A stretch of 39,480 nt of DNA, taken from an uncultured Bacteroidota bacterium (lineage in GTDB: Bacteria > Bacteroidota > Bacteroidia > UKL13-3). The notes beneath the pieces were generated by a model. It saw only the letters and a program-made list of their open reading frames with translations. It was not told the DNA's origin and made no database searches. Shown here in pieces: positions 36,645 through 39,480 of the stretch. A program made the translations under genes and the position numbers. The stretch spans positions 5,001 to 44,480 of the forward strand of contig CAISCU010000032.1 in NCBI GenBank assembly GCA_903883965.1, in the 5' to 3' direction. The first letter of the stretch is position 1, and the number at the start of each line of letters is the position of its first letter.

Positions 36645-37658
36645 ATGACAAACAAAAACAAAAAGCAATATTATTTTGAATTGATAGATGTGATTGCATT
36701 TATCATACACTGGAGAAAACAATTGTTGTTGTTGTGCGGCAGCTCCGCTATTTTGGCAATTATAATATCTAGCCCGCTGATTATCAAGCCAAAATACAAA
36801 TCAACAGCTGTATTTTATCCATCAACCAACAACTCAATTTCCAATGCTTTGTTATCAGATTCAAGAACCAGTAAAAAAGACCCATTGGAATTTGGAGAAC
36901 AGGTTGCAGCCCAACAATATGTTCAAATATTAGAATCAGATGCTTTAAAAAACAGGGTTATTCAGCATTTTAATTTGGTTACACATTACCAAATTGACCC
37001 CAACGACAAAGAAATCAACTACAAAGTTGGCAAAGAATATGCAAAAAACATTTCTGCAAAAAAAACTCCTTATGCCTCAATAGAAGTTAACGTATTGGAT
37101 ATTGATCCACAATTGGCTGCAGCAATTGCAAACGGCATCGTAAGTATTTTAGACAGTGTTAAAACAGAAGTTCAAAAAACAGTTGCTTTACAAGCACTGA
37201 CCATTATTGAAACAGAATACAACCGCAAAGTAGATGAAATCAACAATATCAAATTGCGCATGAAAGAAATAGGCGAAAAAGGCGTTTATTCATTTGAAGA
37301 GCAATCTAAAGCCATAACAGAATTAATTGGTAAAACAGGAATAAACGAGTATGTGACCAAACAACAAAAAGCACTTTCTGAATACGGCGCTGAAAACATG
37401 TATTTAGCTGGTAACCTAGAACTTCAGGTTGAACAACTCAACGAACTCAAAAAGAAATTTGACCAAGCTAAAATTGATGTAGATGCCCATTTAAGCAATG
37501 TATTTATTTTACAAAATGCCAGCCCTGCCGAAAGAAAAACCTATCCTATTCGCTGGATGATTGTTTTGGGTGCTGTCATTGGAACCTTTGTATTGAGTTG
37601 TATTGTGCTCATTTTTATTGAGAAATTCAAACACAAAAAAATTGCTTTCGTTGATTAA
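36645..37658 (+). CDS. Wzz-like chain-length determinant protein (no kinase domain)
   Basis: Polysaccharide co-polymerase of 337 aa anchored by two helices (about 24-44 and 303-325) with a periplasmic coiled-coil region between. YYFELIDVIAFIIHWRKQLL before the first helix and the short C-terminal Lys-rich tail (EKFKHKK) are typical of Wzz-type proteins. No ATP-binding kinase domain is attached, in contrast to the 838-aa protein at 1928. Being sandwiched between flippase and polymerase suggests control of O-antigen-like chain length. It is 21 bp downstream of the flippase gene and overlaps the next gene. Confidence 0.88.
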   Translation: MTNKNKKQYYFELIDVIAFIIHWRKQLLLLCGSSAILAIIISSPLIIKPKYKSTAVFYPSTNNSISNALLSDSRTSKKDPLEFGEQVAAQQYVQILESDALKNRVIQHFNLVTHYQIDPNDKEINYKVGKEYAKNISAKKTPYASIEVNVLDIDPQLAAAIANGIVSILDSVKTEVQKTVALQALTIIETEYNRKVDEINNIKLRMKEIGEKGVYSFEEQSKAITELIGKTGINEYVTKQQKALSEYGAENMYLAGNLELQVEQLNELKKKFDQAKIDVDAHLSNVFILQNASPAERKTYPIRWMIVLGAVIGTFVLSCIVLIFIEKFKHKKIAFVD

Positions 37659-39096
37659 AAAACTACTAAAGAACAAACAACAACAGCTCTTTACATGGGT
37701 TGGTTTGTTTATCTTATTTAATACGCTCGCAATAGCATTTGAAATTTATTGGATTTGCTTCATACCCATTGCAATTGGGTTTGGGCTTGTTGCAACTTTT
37801 AAACTTGATTTAGTACTCCTGTTTATTGTAGCCATGGTGCCTTTGTCTATTAATATTGAAGACATTGGCTTGGGTTTAGGAATCAGTTTACCAGATGAGC
37901 CCTTGATTATTGTTTTATTTTTACTGGTTATTTACAAATTCATTATTGACGGAGAATATGATTTTAGGGTACTGAAGCACCCCATCACAATTGCTATTTT
38001 TATCAATACACTTTGGATTTTTATCACTTGTTTAACCAGCATGGAAGTGTTGGTTTCTTTTAAGTTTTTATTGTCAAGAATTTGGTATATCGTGTTGTTT
38101 TATTTGTTAGGAGTAGTGTTATTTAAAAACTTCAAGCACATGTTTAACTTTTTGTGGGCATACATGATTCCTTTGGCTGCTGTCATTGTATTTACTTTGA
38201 TCAAACACAGTGAAGACAATTTTTCACAAATCAGCTCATTCGAAATTATGGCACCATTTTACATAGCTCATGGTATTTATGCAGCTGCCATTGCATTTTT
38301 TATTCCACTTTTGGCATGTTACCTTTTGTTTGGTTACAGAATGCAGTTGAGTTTGCATATAGTTCTGATTTCACTGTTTTTATTGGTATTGTTTTCTGCA
38401 GGTGTGGCTTTTTCATTTACCAGAGCTGCATGGTTGAGTATAGCCGTAGCAATAGGATTTAGCTTGTTGTTGTTTTTGAGGGTAAGACTTTGGCAATTGC
38501 TCTTGATTGCCGGTATAGGAGTGGTTTTTGTGTTGGTTAATTTTGACGATATTTTTTACCAATTGTATCAAAATAAACAGAATTCAGCCGATGGATTTGA
38601 AAAACACCTTGAATCGGTATCAAATGTAAGAAATGACGTTTCCAATTTAGAAAGAGTAAACCGTTGGATGGCAGCTATCAATATGAATAAGGCAAAACCA
38701 GTTATGGGATTTGGCCCAGGCGCCTTTTCATTTACTTATGCCCCCTACCAAGATCCAGAATTTAAAACGCCTATTACAACAGCTTTTGGTGACCAAGGAC
38801 ATGCGCATAGTGAATTTTTAAACCCTCTGGCAGAGAGTGGTTGGTTGGGATTGATTACTTTTGTAGCCGTGTTATTGGTGGTATTTAGGGTAGGCATGCG
38901 GCTTGTATACAAAGCAAGTTCTATGAATGTTAGAATTTATGCCGCAGCCATTTTACTTGGCTTGGTTACTTATTTTACCCATGGATTCTTAAACAATTAC
39001 AGCGAACAAGATAAAATTGCGGTATTGATTTGGGGAGCTTTTGCCATGATTTGTGCTATGGATTTATACCACAATCCGAAGGAGGAATTAGAATAA
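37642..39096 (+). CDS. Wzy/WaaL-like O-antigen polymerase or ligase
   Basis: Polytopic membrane protein of about 484 aa with 10-12 helices and the large periplasmic loop of the O-antigen ligase/Wzy_C family. The signature is GFGPGAFSFTYAPY followed by GHAHSEFLNPLAESGWLGL near residue 395, with a probable catalytic or binding Arg at SFTRAAW. Polymerase versus ligase cannot be decided by motif; placement after Wzx and Wzz favours polymerase. There is no ATG near the 5' end. The frame opens at TTG 37603, which would overlap the Wzz gene by 56 bases, but TTG at 37642 or 37651 gives a short overlap and the helix begins soon after. I list 37642 and regard the start as uncertain. Confidence 0.82.
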   Translation: MLSLIKKLLKNKQQQLFTWVGLFILFNTLAIAFEIYWICFIPIAIGFGLVATFKLDLVLLFIVAMVPLSINIEDIGLGLGISLPDEPLIIVLFLLVIYKFIIDGEYDFRVLKHPITIAIFINTLWIFITCLTSMEVLVSFKFLLSRIWYIVLFYLLGVVLFKNFKHMFNFLWAYMIPLAAVIVFTLIKHSEDNFSQISSFEIMAPFYIAHGIYAAAIAFFIPLLACYLLFGYRMQLSLHIVLISLFLLVLFSAGVAFSFTRAAWLSIAVAIGFSLLLFLRVRLWQLLLIAGIGVVFVLVNFDDIFYQLYQNKQNSADGFEKHLESVSNVRNDVSNLERVNRWMAAINMNKAKPVMGFGPGAFSFTYAPYQDPEFKTPITTAFGDQGHAHSEFLNPLAESGWLGLITFVAVLLVVFRVGMRLVYKASSMNVRIYAAAILLGLVTYFTHGFLNNYSEQDKIAVLIWGAFAMICAMDLYHNPKEELE

Positions 39097-39143: not shown

Positions 39144-39160
39144 CAACTCCGTAGGAGTTG
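39144..39160. repeat. CTCC/GGAG palindrome, copy 1
   Basis: CAACTCC, loop GTA, GGAGTTG gives a perfect 7-bp stem. The CTCC-n-GGAG core recurs at 39191-39208 with different flanking pairs, as in REP-like families common in Bacteroidota intergenic DNA. Confidence 0.65.
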
Positions 39161-39190
39161 AATACTACTAAAAACAATAAAAAGGCCATC

Positions 39191-39208
39191 ACACTCCATT
39201 AGGAGTGT
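39191..39208. repeat. CTCC/GGAG palindrome, copy 2
   Basis: ACACTCC, loop ATTA, GGAGTGT gives a perfect 7-bp stem. Relative to copy 1 the stem pair A-T next to the core becomes C-G-compatible through matched changes on both arms. Confidence 0.62.
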
Positions 39209-39250: not shown

Positions 39251-39265
39251 GGCTGAGCGGCAGCC
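39251..39265. repeat. GGCTG/CAGCC hairpin element
   Basis: GGCTG, loop AGCGG, CAGCC forms a 5-bp GC-rich stem in an otherwise AT-rich region, followed by GAAGCC. The wider phrase (39249-39271) resembles GAGCGG-type repeats I associate with Bacteroidota intergenic regions; this cannot be confirmed here. Confidence 0.5.
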
Positions 39266-39369
39266 GAAGCCTAATTGTATTTGAGATAATTCTTCCGTGA
39301 ATGGTCGCTTGCGAGTATTTTTTGATTCTCACTTTTTTCTTAATAAAAAAGGCACCCAAATTTTAATAT

Positions 39370-39480
39370 CCTGATAAGCTCTGCTTCATCAGGGAAAAAT
39401 CCTGACAAACTAGTTTCGTCAGGGCAAGACCTGCGCCAATCGGCTTAAAATATTTTATGCTGATAGGCAAAGCCTCGTCA
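39370..39480. repeat. Tandem covarying hairpins with a conserved bulged C (three units, last cut by window)
   Basis: Unit 1 (39370-39393) pairs CCTGAT with ATCAGG and AAGC with GCTT, leaving C39387 bulged. Unit 2 (39401-39423) pairs CCTGAC with GTCAGG and AAAC with GTTT, leaving C39417 bulged. Unit 3 (39460-39480, truncated) pairs TGAT with GTCA (one G-T) and AGGC with GCCT, leaving C39476 bulged. Stem differences between units are compensated on both arms, and the bulge is in the same place each time. This argues for a structured nucleic acid rather than a simple sequence repeat. Confidence 0.75.

Follow-up and report, generated by a model that had tools for sequence, protein, structure and literature searches.

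Small repeats inserted in genes include the Rickettsia palindromic elements and the cyanobacterial STRR repeats, the latter being found in RNase P RNA as well. Both are likened here by description to a hairpin of Bacteroidota, from which they differ in sequence and in host. Rickettsia palindromic elements are also named in the consulted excerpt of PMC3733652. Published work ties REP elements to RAYT transposases and the CGTC types to no known mover. The GTAG REPs of that excerpt, with the REPINs and BIMEs of the REP/RAYT system, resemble the Bacteroidota hairpin as 20-40 bp imperfect intergenic palindromes that occur in clusters and tandem runs with paired changes between subfamilies, and some of them carry bulges or lie inside other palindromes; the Bacteroidota hairpin differs in having neither a GTAG/GTGG foot nor a flanking RAYT. 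CGTC REPs, to which the same excerpt assigns no known transposase and which it reports in Bacteroidetes too, are alike in host and in having no known mover, whereas their unpaired CGTC end, 8-9 bp stem and 4-5 base loop contrast with the C that is bulged and the GTC that is paired in the stem here. The atypical structures of TnpA-Y1 subclass 2.6, as far as the excerpt of PMC6006769 describes them, are likewise Bacteroidetes hairpins with copies elsewhere in the genome, but they flank their own gene, while none of the Y1 genes examined here is flanked by the hairpin; the two are compared by description and may be identical. Repetitive hairpin-forming elements of sponge mitochondria (PMC2800124, in part) are also small hairpins invading intergenic DNA, yet they are mitochondrial, belong to unrelated hosts, and are likened by description rather than by sequence. 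A literature search with four hairpin sequence strings returned no such repeat by title among the matches listed. The hairpin is most likely a REP-like element outside the GTAG and CGTC families, and no described family was matched here.

The window analysed is a stretch of 39,480 nucleotides from an uncultured Bacteroidota bacterium (G000:C32:5001-44480), the right edge of which is the contig end. Within its last 110 bases lie two complete hairpins and a truncated third. BLAST with the last 141 bases found 19 places in the genome, many of them close to contig ends. No plasmid matched the window end, and no Rfam family was found within the window. The features of this region are as follows.

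37603..39096, + strand: O-antigen ligase gene (Wzy_C), upstream of the repeat
39145..39159, + strand: AACTCCGTAGGAGTT, a hairpin of the second family, adjacent to the mosaic repeat
39191..39208, + strand: partner hairpin ACACTCCATTAGGAGTGT
39251..39271, + strand: third hairpin family GGCTGAGCGGCAGCCGAAGCC
39330..39357, + strand: backbone hairpin CACTTTTTTCTTAATAAAAAAGGCACCC, in the left part of the aligned mosaic repeat
39365..39425, + strand: site A insert of the mosaic repeat, absent from the genome's own copy C41 and from two copies of the sister species G003 that cover the site
39370..39393, + strand: hairpin unit 1, CC TGAT-AAGC-TCT-GCTT-C-ATCA GG, with a bulged C; the CTGAT..ATCAG part is 39371-39392
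39401..39423, + strand: hairpin unit 2, CC TGAC-AAAC-TA-GTTT-C-GTCA GG; the CTGAC..GTCAG part is 39402-39422
39426..39451, + strand: AAGACCTGCGCCAATCGGCTTAAAAT, conserved backbone from site A to site B
39460..39480, + strand: hairpin unit 3, site B type, CTGAT-AGGC-AAA-GCCT-C-GTCA, cut by the contig end

A first-pass annotation of this edge had read three units of one CCTGAY architecture, each with a loop of 2-3 bases. Units 1 and 2, placed 31 bp apart, follow that architecture; unit 3 begins with GCTGA at a distance of 37 bp from unit 2, its junction in the window is T.G, and its complete form in six other copies is CTGAC AGGC AAA GCCT C GTCAG with a C-G junction. The shorter of the two loop lengths has to be given up: since two bases are too few to close a loop, DNA parameters predict for the AAAC/GTTT unit a 3-bp inner stem with a 4-base loop. 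Under RNA parameters, unit 2 on the + strand retains its outer stem only. Folded as RNA or as DNA, the units score better than shuffled sequence, with z of about -3 to -5.6.

The hairpin belongs to a multi-copy family. The family pattern with a free inner stem had 44 exact matches in the 2.5-Mb genome and none when reversed, which sets the family apart from chance. The units are imperfect palindromes in the 20-40 bp range, with many copies between genes. Many copies sit downstream of genes as read by eye; two of the 44, on contig C6, adjoin a tRNA outside the mosaic repeat. A census with bulge and junction left free gave 42 units in 13 of the genome's own loci, and the bulge was a single C in 42/42, as the annotation had noted for its three units. 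The junction pair was T-A in 25 units, C-G in 15, C.A in one and T.G in one. Inner pair 2 was A-T in 36 and G-C in 6, inner pair 3 was G-C and A-T in 21 each, and pairs 1 (A-T) and 4 (C-G) were invariant. The junction and inner pairs 2 and 3 thus vary in step with two exceptions among the 42 units. The other copies, the pairing and the bulged C that the annotation proposed to seek genome-wide are all present, and its central idea, a structure kept by compensatory change and spread through the genome, is supported by the exact matches, the mosaic-copy alignment and the census. Since the copies are related by duplication and fall into 10 haplotypes, the 42 units represent few events. The period of tandem units is 30 or 31 bp here, and 31 bp in a distant Bacteroidales MAG. 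In a separate observation, two hairpins of similar architecture separate the genome's own tRNA-Arg(CCT) from the partial 3' copy that comes after it (L094:4981-5119).

The units occupy three fixed sites, named A, B and C, of a larger intergenic mosaic repeat whose module order is fixed. Twenty-one copies, drawn from three genomes of a single genus (the one under study, G001 and G003), were aligned, and the three sites are filled in differing combinations across them. Copies with and without the inserts occur: the genome's own C41 has no hairpin at any of the three sites, and three copies from the sister species G003 are hairpin-free at every site covered, one of them (C42) beginning after site A. 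The backbone exists in the sister species free of hairpins, which makes gain the more economical explanation, and the hairpins look gained at the mosaic sites. In copies C50b and C21, CAATG flanks the site-C insert on both sides. Beside the repeat, the outer stems of the ACTCC-type hairpins (window 39145-39208) and of the GAGCGG type (39251-39271) seem by eye to change in step between copies. A gene-cassette array between mosaic copies was considered and rejected by eye, as ordinary genes intervene. A gene that we take, from its first residues, to be cas9-like has a mosaic copy immediately upstream, and the next gene is presumably cas1-like (L129:1109-6448).

In other genomes, a scan of 84,980 species with the pattern CTGAYAARC-N2-4-GYTTCRTCAGG matched at least 80 stretches, and 50 of the 80 matches listed are Bacteroidota by title. 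Among the matches listed, all four inner pairs form in 60/62 Bacteroidota hairpins versus 19/31 in the remaining 30 stretches, and the junction pair forms in 51/62 versus 18/31; the figures outside Bacteroidota are nearer to what the scan pattern allows by chance. Counts per genome reached 21 (G457, which has 31-bp tandem arrays) and 19 (G439), with none in reversed controls. The relative G001, 79% complete, has nine hairpins, and a nested hairpin copy was found in G002. One class genome (G064; L096-L100) has a related unit, CTGAT-AGAC-GGA-GTCT-C-GTCAG, in six copies that lie among other palindromes. In 395 class genomes, with the genome under study left out, the core GACAAGC..GCTT(N)GTC carried C at 13 sites, T at 11, G at 7 and A at none, and six sites were bulge-free; this is a hand count of single-base bulges from the match list, two-base ones being left aside. 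Conservation of the C bulge was therefore not seen in these class genomes at large, and once the retrieval pattern is left out, hairpins show no general C-bulge excess, bar a few GAC..GTC members. Reversed-control matches in the 395 genomes were of the same order as core matches, so most class genomes are at background only and the family is patchy. Among viral contigs one stretch matched, and it looks coding by eye.

Look-alikes were found in the loops of RNA genes. Seven partial tRNA copies in five genomes (two each in L174 and L178, one each in L192, L194 and L216) carry the hairpin in their D-loop, directly behind GG(T), and these copies adjoin intact tRNAs; L217 and L234 hold the corresponding 3' side of the D-arm. 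In several of them a second hairpin, ATGCTGAC..GTCAGCAT, comes after the first, so that the two form a pair. At L178:1438-1980, the anticodon loop of partial tRNA copies also bears a hairpin of the CCCGATAATCGGG type, as if several kinds enter tRNA loops. Insertion into the D-loop as a common feature was rejected, as the D-loop pattern had one match in the 395 class genomes and that match is without tRNA context. The RNase P RNA of G453 has the CTGAY hairpin as its P3 helix. P3 could be read by eye in 24 of 29 RNase P loci, with CTGAC or CTGAT in 6/24 and a bulged C in 2/24, rates that are biased by a set picked for genomes carrying the hairpin or relatives of the genome under study.

The annotation had offered a REP-associated tyrosine transposase as one possible recogniser of the structure, and this suggestion is not supported. 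The search for Y1_Tnp genes covered the genome itself, 97 relatives and 15 genomes with the hairpin, and none of the 41 loci scanned, with about 1.5 kb on each side and subclasses pooled, carries the CTGAY hairpin. The genome has a single Y1_Tnp protein, with no second match at E 0.001:

L023:1411-1857, - strand: own Y1_Tnp gene, 148 aa, with a subclass 1.2-like motif

Its motifs DHIH and YINRQEEHH (Y---Q--HH) fit subclass 1.2 of PMC6006769, a subclass that the excerpt of that paper describes as generally without typical structures. Several AACTCCTARCGGAGTT (AACTCC) hairpins nevertheless lie upstream of this gene at about L023:2180-2500; they are unrelated to the CTGAY hairpin. As Y1 genes are present in 79/97 relatives, the mere presence of one is uninformative. 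The CTGAY units have no GTAG-type foot: GTRG or GGAS lies within 8 nt of either end in 2/42 units, and the usual foot is AT(C/G).

The explanation preferred here, given roughly an even chance of being right, is that a mobile REP-like hairpin was put into three sites of the mosaic repeat, multiplied in tandem and was spread by recombination with that repeat. The core CTGAY-ARRC-loop-GYYT-C-RTCAG would have entered an older, intergenic mosaic repeat at three fixed positions; inserted hairpins would then multiply with the 30-31 bp period and be carried with the repeat through recombination. Movement may take place as a folded single strand, on the lagging strand or in a cruciform, through an enzyme that would recognise the bulged C. 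The loops of other hairpins, namely tRNA arms, terminators, RNase P P3 and the hairpin's own loop, would be preferred, and the host would need no function from the element beyond an occasional use as a 3'-end hairpin. What was observed is a multi-copy family with an invariant C bulge, paired changes and a tandem period, and the presence of the insert in some copies and not in others; that single hairpins move, that the bulged C is recognised and that loops are targeted is inferred. Against the mobile hairpin stands the search of 15 hairpin-bearing genomes and 41 Y1 loci, which linked no enzyme to it. The background-level core matches in the 395 class genomes, their single D-loop match lacking tRNA context and the want of a general C-bulge excess outside the family also count against it; tandem slippage with gene conversion could give the spread inside the mosaic repeat, and the partial tRNA copies may be decaying tandem duplicates. 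A wider proposal, which is possible but rather doubtful, is that patchy selfish hairpins of Bacteroidota enter the loops of tRNA D-arms, RNase P P3, terminators and their own kind via a non-RAYT enzyme, with the bulged C as the mark and a duplicate tRNA keeping the host alive.

Passive expansion is a tentative alternative with a minor share of the probability: after one origin in the mosaic repeat, slippage, recombination and gene conversion would have multiplied the hairpin with no transposing enzyme, the look-alikes being old homology or convergence. The regular tandem spacing, the fixed sites with haplotypes common to several copies, and the absence of a linked enzyme at the 41 Y1 loci all agree with such a process. 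Against it, the hairpin's presence in other Bacteroidota, within tRNA D-loops, terminators and an RNase P helix, calls for spread between contexts.

A function in RNA is somewhat less probable still. The units would be transcribed hairpins of 3' ends or of processing, the bulged C a contact for a protein or an RNase, and selection would keep pairing and bulge. The position of many copies downstream of genes agrees with this, as do a T-run of at least four within 12 nt after 13/62 Bacteroidota hairpins, among the species-scan matches listed, and the ATTTTT that comes after unit 2 on the - strand, which gives a terminator-like site there. In the genome under study, on the other hand, a T4 run follows 0/42 units on the + side and 11/42 on the - side; the lack of an Rfam family within the window, the varying number of units and the sister-species copies without hairpins speak against it as well. 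Movement as a classical REP, whether by a RAYT or in trans by the Y1 protein that the genome encodes, is improbable, for although the hairpins are short imperfect intergenic palindromes with a bulge in many copies and one Y1_Tnp gene is present, the hairpin is missing from all 41 Y1 loci, the GTAG-type foot is wanting, the Y---Q--HH motif belongs to a subclass reported without typical structures in the excerpt of PMC6006769, and G001 has its nine hairpins with no detected Y1, albeit in an assembly only 79% complete.

The hairpin with its fixed bulge, the hairpin-free copies of the sister species and the look-alikes in loops of RNA genes together offer a concrete system in which to test the way small palindromes move and any targeting of folded single strands. 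They also advise caution, in that terminator-like hairpins and hairpins in tRNA fragments of Bacteroidota may be repeat insertions.
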